A stretch of DNA of 51,752 bases from a virus. The DNA lies in IMG/VR virus record IMGVR_UViG_3300004463_000209, positions 1-51,752 of that record. One strand, 5' to 3'. The notes under the pieces were generated by a model. The model saw nothing but the letters and a program-made list of their open reading frames with translations, did not search any database and was not told the DNA's origin. The position numbers and the translations under genes are program-made. Numbering within the stretch: the first letter of the stretch is position 1; every line of letters starts with the position of its first letter. Shown here one piece after another: positions 13,805 to 43,975 of this stretch.

Positions 13805-14358
13805 AATTGGGAAAAACTAATGGTTTCTAAGGTGAATCCTTCATGAATGGTTAGTTTGAAATTCATATCGGTAACTAAGGTGAAAGTCGTAGCATCGTGC
13901 GCTCTCTTGAAATAGGAGTCTACGAAGTTATTCACCTTCTGCTGCATATCTTTGTTTGAGATACGGGAGCGTTGTATCTCAACGATGTATGATTTACCCT
14001 TTTCATCCTTATAATAAATATCAGGTCGATATGAATGTCCATTGAGAGAAGGTTCGATGACAAATGTTTGAGGGTATTTTGCGTGAATGTAGAAGTCGGC
14101 TATCGCCATCCAGTGTTCAATGTGTGTACTTCTAGGGTGAATGAGGGTAGGATTTGGCATGTAGATGTATTGATTTTCTCTTGGTTGTGGAATTGCGGTG
14201 ATATGAGTATCCCTAGCCAATCTTTTCAGGACTCGATTCACCGTCATTGTAGGTCGTGCTACGTCCGAGCAAGTCATGATTGCTAATTGATTGCGACTCA
14301 AGACTTTGAATTCCCGTAGTAATCTGATTATCAATTTGTCTCTCCAACTGAGTGCCAT
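13780..14358 (-). CDS. Replication-relaxation family protein
   Basis: A 192-residue protein of the 'replication-relaxation' type found with FtsK-like ATPases on Bacillus plasmids and mobile elements. An N-terminal winged helix (SWRDKLIIRLLREFKVLSRN, then ARPTMTVNRVLKRLARD) is followed by a nuclease-like core with YRPDIYYKDEKG and YIVEIQRS, which resembles a PD-(D/E)xK fold (Asp then ExQ). ATG 14358 follows GGAGG by ten bases, so it overlaps the end of the FtsK-like gene by 146 bases in another frame. Likely acts on DNA together with the FtsK-like protein. Confidence 0.75.
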   Translation of the reverse strand: MALSWRDKLIIRLLREFKVLSRNQLAIMTCSDVARPTMTVNRVLKRLARDTHITAIPQPRENQYIYMPNPTLIHPRSTHIEHWMAIADFYIHAKYPQTFVIEPSLNGHSYRPDIYYKDEKGKSYIVEIQRSRISNKDMQQKVNNFVDSYFKRAHDATTFTLVTDMNFKLTIHEGFTLETISFSQLKEVSAYA

Positions 14359-15472
14359 ATTTCTTGAACCTCCTAGCGATTTCTTCACATTGTTTTGGAT
14401 TAATGTACGGAACCTGGACTGTTTCCATGATTCCATCTAAGAGGATGGCTCTCCCTTTGATTCCTCCGAGGTAAGCGCAGTCCTCTGAACCTATGATGAG
14501 TTTACTATTGTTTTCATCAGCAGTCGTAAGTCCCATACGTGCTATGATGTTGGCCTTGATTCTTGGTTTGAGGACGGTAGTTGCATCCGGCCTTTGTGTA
14601 GCTAAGATGATATGAACATCTACGTAGCTATAGGTTTCAATGAGTTCCATAACGACTTCCTGTATTTCTTCAATGTCAGCAAGTCGAGCGTATTCATCTA
14701 TGATGAGAATGATTGGTTCCATTGGTTCATCGGGATAAACTTCTCTGAAGTGTTTGAGGTCGATAACGTTTCCCTTCTCTTTCAGAAGGTCTTTTCTCCG
14801 TTTAGCTTCTATGAGAATGTCATTTAACATTTGGATGGTTTCATTTACATCATCAGTGAGGTTGATATTCGGGAACATGTAGAAGTCGGATGCTTTCGTG
14901 GTGCTAAGGTGTACCTGTAGTTTTCCTTTCATCCCTTCCATGATGGAGGATAGCAGGAGTCTAAGGAATACGGTCTTGCCTGTTCGTGCTGCTCCTCCCA
15001 CTAGGAGATGCCAACTTGCTTCATCATAGAGGTCGAAGTGGATGAGTCCGAAGTGAGACATGAGTGGAACCTTTAGTCCGTCCGTTATCATGCTAGGGGA
15101 AAAGGATATTTTCTCATTGAGGTCTTTTTTACCGATGTGCATTTCACAATCCCTCCCAAAGATATGTTTGAATTTAATCTTACACCATAGGTCTTGCTCG
15201 ATAGCCGGAATCACTTTTTTGAAAGAAGCTATGGTGATTCCTTGCGGTAGTCTGAGTTTGAGATGGAATCCGTAGTCAGTTTTATCGTACTTAGTGAGTT
15301 CCACGAATGTAGTTTCATCTATGATCTTATGAGTCTGTAGGCTCCTACGGAAATCATCTAAGAAGTAATCAGGTTCGGGTGGTGGAGTGAAATACGCTTT
15401 GAGTTGCCTGTATCCCATCGTAGCAAGTGAACCGACTGTCAGAACTGCACCGAGAATAGGCGTAATAAACAC
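14213..15472 (-). CDS. FtsK/SpoIIIE-like DNA translocase
   Basis: A 419-residue membrane-anchored DNA-pumping ATPase. Start is GTG 15472, eight bases after AAGGGGG. An N-terminal hydrophobic stretch (ITPILGAVLTVGSLATMGY) anchors it. Walker A is GGAARTGKTVFL (about residues 158-169), Walker B PIILIIDEYARL, and the FtsK-type ILATQRPDA motif follows. It lacks the gamma domain and long linker of cellular FtsK, like plasmid and ICE TcpA/FtsK coupling ATPases. Forms a leftward cassette with 15439-15657 and 13780-14358. Could move phage or episome DNA; role inferred. Confidence 0.83.
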   Translation of the reverse strand: MFITPILGAVLTVGSLATMGYRQLKAYFTPPPEPDYFLDDFRRSLQTHKIIDETTFVELTKYDKTDYGFHLKLRLPQGITIASFKKVIPAIEQDLWCKIKFKHIFGRDCEMHIGKKDLNEKISFSPSMITDGLKVPLMSHFGLIHFDLYDEASWHLLVGGAARTGKTVFLRLLLSSIMEGMKGKLQVHLSTTKASDFYMFPNINLTDDVNETIQMLNDILIEAKRRKDLLKEKGNVIDLKHFREVYPDEPMEPIILIIDEYARLADIEEIQEVVMELIETYSYVDVHIILATQRPDATTVLKPRIKANIIARMGLTTADENNSKLIIGSEDCAYLGGIKGRAILLDGIMETVQVPYINPKQCEEIARRFKKYGTQLERQIDNQITTGIQSLESQSISNHDLLGRSTTYNDGESSPEKIG

Positions 15473-25348: not shown

Positions 25349-26299
25349 CTATTTGTAGTAGCGGAGAACGTTATCAACGTAGTTTACGTCACCATAGCGT
25401 TTCCAACCATATTTTTTTGCGTAATAGTTAGAGTATTGTTGAACAACTGACTTACTGTATTGCCCACCTGAATATTGGTCGAACCATTTGAGGAGTCCTG
25501 CGCCCATGTTATAAGCAGCAAGAGCCTTACGAACATCTCCTCCGGCTTCTCTATATCGAGCAGCGAATTCCTTCGTTCCTGCTTCAATAGATGCTTCGTA
25601 TGAGTTGAATTGTCCACCTCCGGCTACTCCACCGTTTGCTTCCATGATGTTCTTACCTGTTGTTTTACCCATAGAAGATTCTTGCATGGACATAGCCATC
25701 AAGATGCTAGGGTCAACTCCGTATTTTTGTCCGGCAGATTGGAACATTGGAGCGAATTTACCCGCTTGTTGATTAATCCAGGGTTTAGCACCACCTACTG
25801 ATAATCCTCCCGAAGAAGGAGCAGAAGTCGTAGCACCTCCACCAATCCTACGAACAGTACCGCTAAAGTGTTGCTTCCAATAACCACTATTCATATCAGC
25901 AATCGCAACACCTGTTGCAGACTGAGAACCCATAAACTTACCATTTCCAAGATAAATCCCAACGTGACCGTTCTTCTTGTATGTATCGAAGAATACTACG
26001 TCACCTACTTGCATTTGGTTCGGATTTACCGCAGTTCCTTGACGAACTAAGGTGTCAGTGTTTCCACCGCCTAAGTCCATACCCGCTTGCTTGAACGCAT
26101 ACAGGATGAATCCAGAACAGTCGAAATATCCCTTAGCAACGTCAGAAGCGGTACGTCCTCCACCCCATACATACTTCGTTTTACCAATGAGGGATTGTCC
26201 TATGTTAATAGCTTTTTGTGCTACGCTACTCTGAGTTGTAGATTGCGTATAACCCCTCGTATTCTGAGCATAACCTCCCCCGTTAGAGGAGGAGCGACT
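25349..26299 (-). CDS. NlpC/P60 plus lytic transglycosylase module reached by +1 frameshift
   Basis: This frame has no ATG, GTG or TTG before the catalytic core, so it is read by a +1 slip from the 27650 gene. An NlpC/P60 domain comes first: YVWGGGR, YFDCSGF with the catalytic Cys, then DVVFFDTYKKNGHVGIYLG with the His. A lytic transglycosylase domain follows (FQSAGQKYGVDPSILMAMSM, then ESSM with the catalytic Glu, AYNMGAG). ATG 26080 lies after the catalytic Cys and would yield a damaged enzyme. Fused product: 450 + 316 = 766 residues. Confidence 0.75.
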   Translation of the reverse strand, partial: SRSSSNGGGYAQNTRGYTQSTTQSSVAQKAINIGQSLIGKTKYVWGGGRTASDVAKGYFDCSGFILYAFKQAGMDLGGGNTDTLVRQGTAVNPNQMQVGDVVFFDTYKKNGHVGIYLGNGKFMGSQSATGVAIADMNSGYWKQHFSGTVRRIGGGATTSAPSSGGLSVGGAKPWINQQAGKFAPMFQSAGQKYGVDPSILMAMSMQESSMGKTTGKNIMEANGGVAGGGQFNSYEASIEAGTKEFAARYREAGGDVRKALAAYNMGAGLLKWFDQYSGGQYSKSVVQQYSNYYAKKYGWKRYGDVNYVDNVLRYYK

Positions 26300-27650
26300 A
26301 GGGTGTGGAAGCGTCAGAAGCGTAAGTCGTACCTAGCTTATTCACCAACTGATTGTAGTATTGAGTTAGTATCTTCTGCTGAGATTCGTCCTTTGTATTC
26401 TTCAATAAGCTAGTGACATTATCGAGCGCTGCTTTTGTAGATTGGAACTCCATTTTCAAAGATTGATTCACCATGCTATTCTCCATGTCTTGGATTTTCG
26501 CATTGGTTTCATTCACCTTATTATCAAGTTGCGCCCAACCTAATGACAAATCAGCAGCTTTCAATTGAGAGTCATTCTGCCACTTTGAAACATTAGCGGA
26601 TAACTCTTGACGTTTCATGTCTAATTCAGAGTTACTAATGGATGTTTTTGTATAGTTGTCCAATACATTATTAGCAGTAGGCATAGCGTATGGAGCAACT
26701 GCCTTAATGTAGTCTAAGATGCTTTTTGATTGTTCACTCTTATCAGCTAGGGCGTTATTTTTGTAAGTATCAAATAACTTTTGAGCCGTTACAGAATCAA
26801 TAAGTTTACCCTTTTCACCATTGATGTCCGATACGTTTTTGTTGTATCCGTCAATGAGGCTCTTGATATTTTCATCAGATTTCGCATACGTCTCACCCAT
26901 AGCACGTTGAGACTCCATGTTGTTACGAAGTGCAGCATCTACGGAAATAGCTTGACCCGTCATACCCCTAGAAGCAGAATCTTGTTGTGCTTTCAAAGAG
27001 TTTAAGAACGCTTGCTCCTGAGAAGAAGAGATTGCACGATTCAAGTCGTTATTCAGAATACCTAATTGATCGGTTTTAGCAGTTCCAAGTTCACCTAACA
27101 ACTTGTCGTAGTATGCTCTTTGTTCTGCATTTTGAGCCTTAGCGTCACTATTGGCCTTAGATTGTAAGGATGATAGTTCATCATTACTTAATCCTGATTG
27201 CAATAGATTAAACTTATCCATTTGAGCCTGAATTTCAGGACTAATTTGTGGTGTTTGGAATCCACTAAAGTCAGCATATTCGCTTGTAGGAATATCATAA
27301 CCAACCTGACCGCTATCGGAAAAATCACTATTCCCACCTGATGGTGCTGCTTGACCATCTGATGCTGCTTTGTTTACAATGTTTTTAGGAGGAGCATAAG
27401 GAGCCTTTTGTTGTGAAATAGGCTTCGCAACTCCAAGTGTGGCAGTGATTCCACTATTTGATTGTTTCTGATTAATCGTATTCAAGCCATTAGTTCGCAT
27501 CAACCCTATGGAATAATTGTTGGTTGATTTATTTGCAGGTTTCTTTGGCGCAGTATACGTAGTGTATGTTTTACTTTTATTTTTATCTACTCCTAATAAT
27601 TTATTACGAAGTGATAATACAGAATTTGTTACAGTATTAAAGAATGTCAT
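26298..27650 (-). CDS. Ejection/internal protein, 450 aa in zero frame, +1 fusion to wall hydrolase
   Basis: The zero-frame product ends ASDASTP at TAG (26300-26298). It is Gln/Ser/Asn-rich and mainly helical (LNSLKAQQDSASRGMTGQA, ELDMKRQELSANVSKWQND), as in podovirus internal core proteins, with a low-complexity N-terminus. The last sense codon and stop are CCC TAG followed by T; skipping one base continues into SRSSSNGGGYAQNT and the hydrolase. A 6-bp hairpin (TCCTCC/GGGGGA) starts four bases after the stop. This would produce both a short form and a hydrolase-tipped long form. ATG 27650 follows AGGAGG. Confidence 0.75.
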   Translation of the reverse strand: MTFFNTVTNSVLSLRNKLLGVDKNKSKTYTTYTAPKKPANKSTNNYSIGLMRTNGLNTINQKQSNSGITATLGVAKPISQQKAPYAPPKNIVNKAASDGQAAPSGGNSDFSDSGQVGYDIPTSEYADFSGFQTPQISPEIQAQMDKFNLLQSGLSNDELSSLQSKANSDAKAQNAEQRAYYDKLLGELGTAKTDQLGILNNDLNRAISSSQEQAFLNSLKAQQDSASRGMTGQAISVDAALRNNMESQRAMGETYAKSDENIKSLIDGYNKNVSDINGEKGKLIDSVTAQKLFDTYKNNALADKSEQSKSILDYIKAVAPYAMPTANNVLDNYTKTSISNSELDMKRQELSANVSKWQNDSQLKAADLSLGWAQLDNKVNETNAKIQDMENSMVNQSLKMEFQSTKAALDNVTSLLKNTKDESQQKILTQYYNQLVNKLGTTYASDASTP

Positions 27651-28786: not shown

Positions 28787-30574
28787 CTATGCTTTCATTA
28801 GTTTAAATACATATGCAATTCCTAAAATCTGATTAGGAGTGGCATCATTATGTTCAATTCTCATGCTCGTTTTGTAGCACTTACCGCCAACTGGAAGTTT
28901 GGTCAACATTGTATCGGAAGAACCTAAGGTATTCTCACCTAAAATCCATCCACCAACTACTGCTCCCGATTCTACGGTGACGTTCGGGTCACTTCCTGAT
29001 TTCCAAGTGATAATTCCCTCAAAGTCTACAACTGCTTCACCAGGTGGAGGTGCTAAGACTACCGCCTTATCCGCATACACTGACACATTCAAGTTGACCT
29101 CATCGATTTGAGTGGCCACTACAAGTCGAGTCTCCCGTAGTTTCTTGATATGTTGTGGATTACCAAAGTCAAATTGCTTTGTTTCCACTACGTCAGAGTA
29201 AATGTATACATCATCTCGGAATATTGTAGAATCGAATTGTCGAATGTCTCCTGTACCTTCACTTTGACCATATAGGTTGTTATCCCAAACCCACATTTGG
29301 CTAAAGTCCAACTTAGGAGATTCATCCTTCGTCCACACTTTGAAGTCGTTGTAATATCTAAGTCGTATATCCTTTTCAGGGAAAACTATGTGATACTGAC
29401 CATCGTAGAATATTCCACAAGCATCCTTGTCTCTCGGTACGATGTTCTGAATATTCTTATCCACCTTTGTAACGTTGAGTCCATAAGTATCCAATCGACT
29501 TGAAACTAAGGAATATACGCCATCACTCGATAGGAACATGACGTTGTTTCCAACCATACATGCGGAGAATGGAGCAATACAACCTATGGAACCATTGACA
29601 TTCTGTCTTTGATAATCAGCAGGAGATTTCCCGTACATCGCCTGAATACTACTAGGCATGAAAATCAGTAGCGCATCTCGAAAATGTACGATTGCTGAAA
29701 CTCCCTCTTGTTTCTCATTTTTGAAGTCAATGGTATTCGGGATTGGGAAATATCTAGGAACATTCACATGAGATACATATATCTGAGATGAGTTTGCACT
29801 ATCTCCATATAGAATCAAACGATCCCAATGAAGCGTCACACGATTACAAGTGTGTATTCCATCTACTGACAGATTAATGTTATCATCTACGGACTTAGCA
29901 GTATACTTCGGAACGTAGTATGTTGAATCTGCAATCCCCGTATTCCCTGTTTTCCATGCTCGAATTCTAAGAGTGTATTCCCCTTCATTTGGAGGACTCC
30001 ATGTGAAGGTTTTATTTCCCGCACCTCTCGCACGTATTTCCGTACCTGAGCCAGTGAAATCCGTACCCGTAAAATACACAATTTCATATTCCAATGTATC
30101 AGAAGCACCTTTTGTGATAACAATATTGAATGTAGTATTCTGACCCACAATCCCAATACGTTTGTCAAAGGTAACTGCATTAATCGCTATCGCACCTACG
30201 CCATCAGAAATGTAGTTATCAGGAGAATCCGCTAAACCATTCGTCCCTATATACATGGCTTCAAGGGGTTGTGGGTTGTACGGAACAACTACTTTTGCAG
30301 TTGTTCCGTCATATTCCACAAACTTAGTCCCTGTTGCTATGAACAATGAGTTTCCGTATTGAATCGCTTCAATCGGTTCGTCTGTTTGGAATCCGAACGG
30401 TAAACCATCTATGGGAATATTCGTACCATCCGATAGTTTATACAGTTTCCCTTGAATCGCTACGATTTCAGTGAGTTGGTGCGTAGAATTGTAGTACCTA
30501 AAGTACCCTTGTCCTTTTCCTTGAACTAAGATGGACGGTTTGAATATCTTTAAGTCTCCCCAATTCATACTCAC
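28787..30574 (-). CDS. Tail hub/nozzle-like beta-propeller protein, 595 aa
   Basis: Large beta-rich protein with repeats typical of tail stabilisation or nozzle proteins: GQGYFRYYNSTHQLTEI, PIEAIQYGNSLFIATG, then RVTLHWDRLILYGDS and VMFLSSDGVYSL. A PKD/Ig-like insertion (about 120-220, KTFTWSPPNEGEYTLRI) is present. It appears to lack the usual N-terminal segment (GGLNT...RGSMKRR), which instead is encoded alone at 34872-35123, 4.3 kb upstream. AGGAGGTG precedes ATG 30574. Confidence 0.7.
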   Translation of the reverse strand: MSMNWGDLKIFKPSILVQGKGQGYFRYYNSTHQLTEIVAIQGKLYKLSDGTNIPIDGLPFGFQTDEPIEAIQYGNSLFIATGTKFVEYDGTTAKVVVPYNPQPLEAMYIGTNGLADSPDNYISDGVGAIAINAVTFDKRIGIVGQNTTFNIVITKGASDTLEYEIVYFTGTDFTGSGTEIRARGAGNKTFTWSPPNEGEYTLRIRAWKTGNTGIADSTYYVPKYTAKSVDDNINLSVDGIHTCNRVTLHWDRLILYGDSANSSQIYVSHVNVPRYFPIPNTIDFKNEKQEGVSAIVHFRDALLIFMPSSIQAMYGKSPADYQRQNVNGSIGCIAPFSACMVGNNVMFLSSDGVYSLVSSRLDTYGLNVTKVDKNIQNIVPRDKDACGIFYDGQYHIVFPEKDIRLRYYNDFKVWTKDESPKLDFSQMWVWDNNLYGQSEGTGDIRQFDSTIFRDDVYIYSDVVETKQFDFGNPQHIKKLRETRLVVATQIDEVNLNVSVYADKAVVLAPPPGEAVVDFEGIITWKSGSDPNVTVESGAVVGGWILGENTLGSSDTMLTKLPVGGKCYKTSMRIEHNDATPNQILGIAYVFKLMKA

Positions 30575-34871: not shown

Positions 34872-35123
34872 CTATATCAACTCCTTCCATGTCTTTCCTT
34901 GCAAATCTATCCATTTCAGAGGGTCAGTCGTTTTCGGTGCTATGGATTTCATTCCATATCTTCGCTTCATACTACCCCTCATATCTAAGTCCATATTCTT
35001 CAGTTCTGTAACCTCGGAATCTCCTAAGTTACCACTTGCGGTAGTTGTATTCAAACCACCTATGAAGTTACTGTAAACCTCTAATTGCTTTTCGGGAGAT
35101 ACACGATATGGTTGACGAGCCAT
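34872..35123 (-). CDS. Detached N-terminal segment of a tail nozzle-like protein, 83 aa
   Basis: The segment NFIGGLNTTTASGNLGDSEV with LKNMDLDMRGSMKRRYGM is the usual N-terminus of phage tail stabilisation/nozzle proteins, which continue into a beta-propeller. Here it stops after KTWKELI, and the expected continuation starts a separate gene at 30574. Five tailspike and fibre genes lie between. It may function in trans or be a remnant. Starts four bases from the previous gene's stop. Confidence 0.6.
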   Translation of the reverse strand: MARQPYRVSPEKQLEVYSNFIGGLNTTTASGNLGDSEVTELKNMDLDMRGSMKRRYGMKSIAPKTTDPLKWIDLQGKTWKELI

Positions 35124-41878: not shown

Positions 41879-42650
41879 TTACCAATAAGTTGCTGTAAAT
41901 TCGTGTTTACCATCCTCTGTCCAACCGAACTCATTCTCAGCGTATGATTGTTCAGTCGGTTTGACGTATCGAGTTGGTGGATTAAATGAGTCTGATTTGA
42001 GAAGGTCTATATTGTCTGGAAGTCGCATACAGAGATACCTTAATGCGTCCATCGCATGGTCTTGTGCTTTGATTGGTTTCTCGTCAAAGTTTTCATTCAC
42101 ACTATCAATGTCTAATTCTTCGTATTTATAGGCGTATGCTTCTTTAATGAGGTTAACGCAAGTGTGGAATACTTTCATCTTCCCACGTTCTATGAAGCTG
42201 TTAACCTTCAAAATTCCCGACTCGATGGAATTATTTCCCAATGAGAAGAATAATCCATACTCTTGGAATAGACCTTGTACACTTTTACCCTTTACAACGT
42301 CCAGTTTGTTCCCACAACTCGGATCGCACACCATGAATCGAAGCATTCCGTATGGGATTTCTGAGATTAATGGTTTTAGATTCTTGGCGTGGTCAGGAAG
42401 TAGCATATTTGGTTGATAATACTCATGATATATGACTAATTCACCATTTTTAGGGTTGATTGCACCAAATATAACAGCAGTCGGGTTTCGTTTACCCCAG
42501 TCCATACCAATTACACGTTCCCAATCTAAGGGAATACCAAACCTATCCGTCTTATCAGGAATAACTTGGTAAGAATCAATTACACATTCCTTAAAGTTAG
42601 GGTAAACGGCTCCATCTACTGCTTCAAAACTACCGAATAAGTATTTTCTG
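41879..42650 (-). CDS. terL: Terminase large subunit, exon 3 (nuclease domain)
   Basis: Third exon, joined after 43419. The splice restores DWWIRKYLFGSFEAVDGAVY, the linker between the ATPase and nuclease domains. The RNase H-like nuclease begins VIGMDWGKRNP (first catalytic Asp), followed by MVCDPSC and, near the end, KAQDHAMDALRY (last catalytic Asp). The nuclease cuts the concatemer during packaging. Complete TerL from 44386, 43975 and 42650 exons is 518 residues, normal for the family. Confidence 0.88.
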
Positions 42651-42784: not shown

Positions 42785-43291
42785 CTAGTCGTTACACGTT
42801 TCCACATGGCTCCATTTCTTTCCGATCATAATGTTACGGATTGTTGTGTGACTCACACCAAACTTTTTAGCCAACGCCTTGTATCCATATCCTCTACCTT
42901 TACCACAATTCGTTTTAATCCAACGAACGTTCTCTTCAGTTAGTTTAGCGGATGGAACTTCTTCACCTTTCAAATCGGCAATCAGTCCCATTTTCCTACC
43001 ATGAAGTTGGTTTTCAGAATTAGTCATCCATTCCAAATTCGAGAAATGGTTATTTTTCTTATTACCATCCTTGTGGTTAACTTGTGGTTTTAAAGCGGGG
43101 TTTGGAATAAAGTGCTGAGCCACCAATCTATGGACAAATTTACGTGTTATTACTCCATTTTTATGCAAATTTACACGTAAATATCCTTTAGAATTTGGTT
43201 GTGGTTTCAAAATAAGAGTTCCACTCTTAACATTTCCGTAATTGCTAATTTCGTAATCGAAATCATGTATCTTCACCCATTTTTCAGTCAT
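42785..43291 (-). CDS. Intron-encoded HNH homing endonuclease, 168 aa
   Basis: Cuts intronless terL alleles and spreads the intron. NUMOD4 motif WVKIHDFDYEISNYGNVKSG is followed by the HNH core FVHRLVAQHFIPNP, QVNHKDGNKKNN and NLEW, then a C-terminal HTH (YKALAKKFGVSHTTIRNI). The final codons CND and TAG overlap the group I P7 strand (AACGACTAG). Its start codon is in an 8-bp hairpin (AGTCATAG/CTATGACT) and a near-consensus promoter (43315-43343) starts transcripts within the 5' arm. Confidence 0.9.
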   Translation of the reverse strand: MTEKWVKIHDFDYEISNYGNVKSGTLILKPQPNSKGYLRVNLHKNGVITRKFVHRLVAQHFIPNPALKPQVNHKDGNKKNNHFSNLEWMTNSENQLHGRKMGLIADLKGEEVPSAKLTEENVRWIKTNCGKGRGYGYKALAKKFGVSHTTIRNIMIGKKWSHVETCND

Positions 43292-43304: not shown

Positions 43305-43343
43305 CTATGACTTAATTATAAAGGTAAACCACATTAGAGTCAA
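43305..43343 (-). promoter_or_regulatory. Intron HNH promoter with start-codon hairpin
   Basis: Minus strand TTGACT (43343-43338), 17-base spacer, TATAAT (43320-43315). Start is expected near 43308, inside the 5' arm AGTCATAG (43312-43305). The 3' arm CTATGACT contains the HNH start codon and GAGGAG is in the loop. Long terL pre-mRNA would sequester the start; mRNA from this promoter would not. Confidence 0.78.
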
Positions 43344-43418
43344 GAGGACTTCGCTCGGTATTGCCTTGATTTACAAGGTGTCCACCGAATTAGAAGGGTT
43401 TTAGGTGAACCAACCATA

Positions 43419-43975
43419 ATCCACCAATCCGGCTTTCCTTTACTGTTAATATCAATAAAGTCACTCGGTAAGAACTTGTTTAATTCTGTTTTCCATATAT
43501 AACAGTAAATCTGAGGGTTGTAGTCCTCATGATTGGGATGACGAGGGTCTTTCTTCTTATCATTATCAACAATTACAGGTTTGATCCACGTAGCCTCAGG
43601 ATTCGAGCATACAAACATGGCACGATTTTTCACAAACGGATCACGCATACGTGTTAAAAGCTGAACATAAATAGATTCTTTGATACCACTCGCCTCTTCT
43701 TCGTGAATGAGGCCTGCATTTATTGATCTCAATTTCTCTTCATCATCTGTCGGAATTGTATAGATGGTGAAATTATTAATTAATATGATTTCACCCTCCT
43801 GCTTATTGTACGATTTAATAAGCGGTGGAGGGCAAACTTCATTGAACCATGTTTTCAAAGTTGTCTTTTTTAACTGAGGTAATGTTTGTGCTAGGAAAAG
43901 TCCGGTTCCACGTTCATTTTCTAATGCTCTAATTAAAAATTCCGTTAAAGATGCTTTCGATTTACCACTACCGTA
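43419..43975 (-). CDS. terL: Terminase large subunit, exon 2 (ATPase core)
   Basis: Exon 2 starts YGSGKSKASLTEFLIRALEN, completing Walker A with the GTFGG of exon 1. It continues GTGLFLAQTLPQLKKTT and FTIYTIPTDDEEKLRSINAG, with Walker B at LIHEEEASG and coupling motif FVCSNPEATW. It ends KPDWWI at the second intron. The ATPase powers DNA translocation into the procapsid through the portal. Exon length is 557 nt, with phases fitting both neighbours. Confidence 0.9.

Follow-up and report, generated by a model that had tools for sequence, protein, structure and literature searches.

Very likely programmed +1 frameshifting from a late phage protein onto a wall hydrolase, with -1 and in-frame counterparts in relatives

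The window analysed here, by which we mean the whole stretch of 51,752 bases, is a single metagenome-derived IMG/VR virus record with a 32-bp direct repeat at both ends. On its minus strand a late gene of 450 codons ends at CCC TAG, and a frame with the domains of a peptidoglycan hydrolase continues from there in the +1 register. The features of this junction and its surroundings are the following.

26298..27650, minus strand: upstream late protein of 450 aa, 0 frame, C-terminus ...ASTP at CCC TAG, predicted to be mostly helical
26297..26303, minus strand: putative shift site CCC TAG T, at which CCC in the P site would re-pair on CCT (+1)
26275..26294, minus strand: hairpin CTCCTCC/GGGGGAG of 7 bp, probable stimulator
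25349..26299, minus strand: +1-frame hydrolase extension of 316 codons, without a start of its own before the active-site Cys
25853..26179, minus strand: NlpC/P60 domain (Pfam 8.5e-27), Cys codon at 26119-26117
25394..25759, minus strand: lysozyme-like / SLT transglycosylase domain (Pfam 6.8e-10 and 6.9e-10)
26078..26080, minus strand: first in-frame ATG of the hydrolase frame, 3' of the catalytic Cys codon
21921..25337, minus strand: next gene, a large late protein of 1138 aa, used as phylogenetic marker

At the end of the 450-aa ORF the minus strand reads ACA CCC TAG TCG, and +1 reading past this end gives SRSSSNGGGYAQNT... The hydrolase frame has a stop at 26335 and is open from 26332 to 25349; its first ATG, GTG or TTG occurs only at 26080, after the catalytic Cys (residue 61, 26119). 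Pfam identifies NlpC/P60 in the extension (8.5e-27, residues 41-149), followed by Lysozyme_like/SLT (~7e-10), and the closest solved structure is that of the DL-endopeptidase CwlO (PDB match 1.1e-38). The NlpC/P60 domain is complete, with catalytic Cys and His intact. AlphaFold models residues ~26-153, corresponding to NlpC/P60, with confidence and the lysozyme part with low confidence. Since the confident model begins at residue 26, the NlpC/P60 domain would not survive initiation at 26080 (residue 74). The original prediction, made without database searches, had described a 450-residue ORF ending in TP at CCC TAG T, a +1 continuation into NlpC/P60 and then a transglycosylase, the lack of ATG, GTG or TTG before the catalytic Cys with a first ATG at 26080, and a hairpin just past the stop, and all of this held upon inspection of the sequence and Pfam analysis. 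That the extension is a virion-associated peptidoglycan hydrolase is inferred from gene position and from relatives annotated as 'lytic tail protein'; both its enzyme activity and its presence in the particle are part of that inference.

A degraded gene, with the hydrolase as a relic and frames that came apart through neutral mutation, can be all but excluded. The frame break itself is all that speaks for it, whereas 316 open codons, intact catalytic Cys and His, full domains and retention of the split in divergent relatives speak against it.

The CCC-stop ending is unique to the 450-aa ORF among window ORFs of at least 60 aa. When all CCC-stop hexamers of the window are considered, the junction alone has long frames on both sides (450 + 316 codons), the runner-up having 43 and 56 open codons. 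CCC is a rare proline codon, used for 12 of the 217 prolines in the late genes. The wording of the prediction, which spoke of the same heptamer, presumably referred to another finding; a second CCC-stop with long flanking frames is absent from the window. As a separate observation, CCCTAG, the most frequent NNCTAG hexamer, is found 31 times in the whole window, where 12.65 +- 3.65 would be expected. No Rfam families were detected in the window.

Beginning 3 nt past the stop, the window hairpin has the form CTCCTCC-TCTAAC-GGGGGAG. Two related loci with a +1 junction, L013 (arms GCCCGG/CCGGGC) and L014 (arms TCCCGGC/GCCGGGG), likewise have a GC-rich hairpin 3 nt after the stop, and all three have an equal span (23 nt from the stop). 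Ranked by stability within their own sequences, the 26 nt following the stop fall in the top 0.15% (window, compared with 26-nt windows of the late region), 0.09% (L013) and 0.15% (L014); no comparable post-stop stability was found at the -1 junctions described below, except for L022 at 0.7%. In a gap-free three-way alignment 20 of 21 cells pair and four of the seven pairs show a compensatory change, with a sharp drop when the alignment is slid. Dinucleotide-shuffle z-scores are modest (-1.4 for the window, -2.3 and -0.8 for the other two) and only three sequences are available, so the case for the hairpin rests on position and covariation. The arms also code in part for a Ser/Gly linker.

The hydrolase could instead be made separately, from a non-standard start past the stop codon reached through reinitiation or internal initiation, aided by the Shine-Dalgarno-like stretch GGGGGAGG at ~26281-26274. 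In favour of this are that stretch and the existence of separate hydrolase genes with their own starts in relatives L135 and L137. Against it, ATG, GTG and TTG are missing before the Cys, the ATG at 26271 opens only 16 codons and belongs to the third frame, the Shine-Dalgarno-like stretch is buried in the hairpin, and the ATT and ATA codons at 26209-26188 lack a Shine-Dalgarno sequence. Moreover, CCC-stop and slippery heptamers, which recur in unfused relatives, are unnecessary for reinitiation. We consider separate initiation very unlikely.

The identity of the upstream protein is less clear. The 450-aa protein has no Pfam or PHROG family match and its AlphaFold model is helical and of low confidence; Foldseek with this model yields weak matches to internal virion and DNA transfer proteins. 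The HMM of PHROG 13399, which represents the Pagevirus upstream protein, matches five out of ten junction proteins, the window protein not being among them, and the latter is tied to the junction proteins of relatives by synteny and weak alignment only. The label 'ejection protein' given in the original prediction thus remains an inference, and an internal protein of the T7 gp14 type, helical and ejected with the DNA, is possible on the basis of a helical model and weak structural matches but no more than that.

Relatives were collected with the hydrolase as query, which identified eight viral contigs and the cultured Pagevirus group (B. megaterium podophages), and further ones were added by profile searches, among which the Pagevirus-like profile A3 was productive. 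Searches with the 450-aa protein as sole query gave no matches, and profile A2 gave no confirmed matches. Matches in genome contigs were uninformative, most of them being cellular proteins or other NlpC/P60 proteins whose long N-termini are in frame. No alignable junction was obtained for L165. API480 (Paenibacillus) is closely similar in its portal and 595-aa protein, but the hydrolase is missing from the interval between the corresponding genes. In the common gene order, spike/fibre genes come first, followed by a ~600-aa protein and a small protein; the upstream helical protein then precedes the hydrolase, and a protein of 1,100-1,700 aa comes last. In Pagevirus, holin and endolysin come after this shared block. 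In the relatives a homologous or syntenic upstream protein joins a wall hydrolase at the same point, and a shift-prone sequence is present at the junction of every split-frame relative.

Three further observations concern the gene content of the window. An 83-aa ORF (34872-35123, minus strand) matches the initial ~60 aa of a single gene of relatives (API480_11, L123), and a 595-aa ORF (28787-30574, minus strand) matches its other ~580 aa. In the window a distance of 4.3 kb, with five fibre/spike-like genes in it, separates the two, an arrangement in which a receptor-binding cassette splits a structural gene. The large terminase is seemingly in two parts (43340-43858 and 41879-42505, minus strand) with an HNH endonuclease ORF (42785-43291) in between, an intron-like arrangement, and Rfam detected no intron at gathering threshold. 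An FtsK/SpoIIIE-like gene (14213-15472, minus strand; PHROG 1358, 3.4e-44) is flanked by plus-strand genes.

The junctions of the relatives fall into several types. The hydrolase frame is +1 at CCC-stop in the window (CCC TAG) and in L013 and L014 (both CCC TAA). It is -1 in L002, L003 and L123, where the motif is G GGA AAG-stop, at A AAT TTT in L006 and L159, at G GGT TTT in Pagevirus L010/L011, L022, L162 and L164, and at the weaker, less perfect motifs GAT TTT C (L015) and TCT TTT C (L110). The exact slip position is not fixed in the latter -1 sets, since a stop-adjacent P-site codon (GGG, CCG) could re-pair too. The frames overlap by 13 nt in L002/L003 and by 19-22 nt in L010, L022, L123, L159 and L162, with the motif inside the overlap. 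Upstream protein and lysozyme domain form an uninterrupted single ORF in L106, L109 (same as L158), L114 and L160; PHROG 13399 and transglycosylase families occur in one ORF in L106, L109 and L114, and Pfam SLT in L160. These in-frame fusions were seen in the Pagevirus-like clade only, with none in the clade of the window, and carry the lysozyme domain alone, without NlpC/P60. L135 and L137 encode lysozyme and NlpC/P60 separately, each gene having its own start and a new N-terminus. Lytic modules are exchanged at the junction: NlpC/P60 plus lysozyme, lysozyme alone, M23 plus lysozyme (L110, L159) and a VgrG3-like C-terminal domain (L162, L164).

To assess the specificity of the motifs, 15 phage sequences were used, which together contain 162 ORFs no shorter than 150 aa. 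CCC-stop endings occur in 3/162 ORFs and an X_XXY_YYZ heptamer directly before the stop in 4/162, all of them junction genes; CCC makes up 0.25% of the codons in this set. L002 and L003, as well as L013 and L014, are near relatives, hence independent events are fewer than the motif counts.

These comparisons bear on the possibility of a sequencing or assembly error, according to which the gene would truly be one in-frame ORF. The in-frame fusions of L106, L109, L114 and L160 lend this some plausibility. The split frames, however, are found in many independent assemblies, cultured Pagevirus genomes included, and the splits are always at shift-prone motifs and differ in direction; errors would not pick CCC-stop or X_XXY_YYZ. 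An error is therefore very unlikely.

A phylogeny was built on the neighbouring large protein (the 1138-aa gene in the window). Clade 1, with 100/100 support, comprises the window, L123, L006, L124, L002 and L003; clade 2 comprises L014, L015, L010, L110, L106, L109 and L114. The sister of L114 (fused) is L014 (+1), and that of L109 (fused) is L015 (-1). The placement of L106 and API480, both on long branches, is unsure. On this tree, the states +1, -1 and fused must have changed into one another five times or more. Frameshift direction is not conserved among relatives. From the tree we infer separate origins, or separate retention, of the +1 mode in the two clades. That relatives make the same fusion by other skip signals or without a skip indicates that the fusion is selected.

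The CCC-stop slip itself is known. In Bacillus phage SPP1 a +1 shift at CCCUAA, producing gp17.1 and gp17.1*, is experimentally established and a 3:1 ratio enters the tail (PMC6316719); in tsh of Listeria phages PSA, A118 and A500, +1 at CCC_UGA is likewise experimentally established (PMC5009743). The window site resembles these in having CCC directly before the stop, a +1 shift and a C-terminal extension of a putative virion protein in a phage of Gram-positive hosts. In SPP1 and Listeria tsh the base is the abundant major tail tube protein, whereas here it is a different protein; the SPP1 extension is a non-essential FN3-like domain, whereas here it is a bifunctional wall hydrolase; and PSA tsh depends on the stop codon, whereas the window site has a hairpin after the stop.

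As in lambda G/GT, a conserved recoded gene pair in which direction (-1, -2, +1) varies between phages is seen (Xu, Hendrix & Duda 2004, cited in PMC5009743). The GGGAAAG heptamer, as in L002, L003 and L123, is the lambda G/GT heptamer. The lambda products are assembly chaperones that are missing from mature virions and are encoded beside the tape measure; here we deal with short-tail phages and a hydrolase product. The window junction is not a tail-chaperone pair, as its neighbours are spike/fibre-like genes and the 1138-aa protein. Ig-like extensions of phage coat and tail proteins are made by -1, +1 or in-frame, and have been read as modules landing in any frame (PMC5009743). The mixed -1/+1/in-frame pattern is shared; unlike the Ig-like extensions, the modules here are lytic enzymes (NlpC/P60+lysozyme, lysozyme, M23+lysozyme, VgrG3-like).

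The Pagevirus 'lytic tail protein' (Pavlov gp19, Pascal gp18) shares synteny and hydrolase domains with the window extension, its hydrolase frame being -1 at GGGTTTT. It is annotated as a separate gene from an internal GTG; a frameshift is not annotated in the Pavlov or Pascal genomes and is unmentioned in the genome announcements searched. The annotated GTG start at L010 6037 (Pavlov gp19) removes the first part of the domain, which is probably an annotation error brought about by the frameshift. In the literature searched, outside which most subscription journals fall, we found no report of frameshifting onto a virion wall hydrolase. The slip mechanism is already known; that literature gave no description of its use for a wall hydrolase, of its conservation in two clades of short-tailed phages of Gram-positive bacteria, or of changes between the +1, -1 and in-frame modes.

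Since -2 yields the same frame as +1, and -2 shifts are known in some phages (PMC5009743), the hydrolase frame might also be reached by a -2 shift, or by transcriptional slippage. Polymerase slippage finds no homopolymer beyond CCC at the site; CCC to CCU is a documented +1 re-pairing (PMC6316719), while -2 re-pairing would be poor. Both routes are very unlikely.

Programmed +1 frameshifting is the best explanation of the junction and is very likely, with a probability of roughly 0.92 in our estimate, supported by frames, domains, the missing start, the conserved junction, shift motifs, hairpin covariation and fused relatives, in the absence of protein-level data. The frameshift interpretation of the original prediction is hence supported, comparison with relatives showing the fusion either conserved or replaced by an in-frame fusion; its further claim, a fixed ratio of short to hydrolase-bearing protein in the virion, remains an inference without proteomics. 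Most ribosomes on the 450-aa gene would terminate at UAG. With UAG slow in the A site and the GC-rich hairpin downstream, some peptidyl-tRNA-Pro may slip from CCC to CCU (+1), a step proposed without data on the proline tRNAs of the host. Shifted ribosomes would continue as SRSSSNGGG... and yield a protein of ~766 residues with NlpC/P60 endopeptidase and lysozyme-like domain. In the particle, plain copies would then be numerous and lysin-bearing copies few, and the latter may cut the wall during genome delivery. Actual shifting, its efficiency, the ratio, the occurrence of both forms in virions and enzyme action at entry are all inferred.

In a bolder reading, which we consider likely, the end of this virion gene in two clades of Gram-positive podoviruses is a hot spot for the swapping of lytic modules, where +1 or -1 frameshifting, interconverting with fused or separate genes, doses the lysin-bearing subunits per particle, and the junctions form a new conserved recoded class. 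If programmed frameshifting is true, virion wall hydrolases would join the short list of phage proteins made in this way, and the missing proper starts of annotated Pagevirus 'lytic tail proteins' would be explained. The natural series of +1, -1, fused and separate arrangements would then pose the question why these phages recode, for enzyme dosage per particle or as a consequence of the frame in which a module landed.
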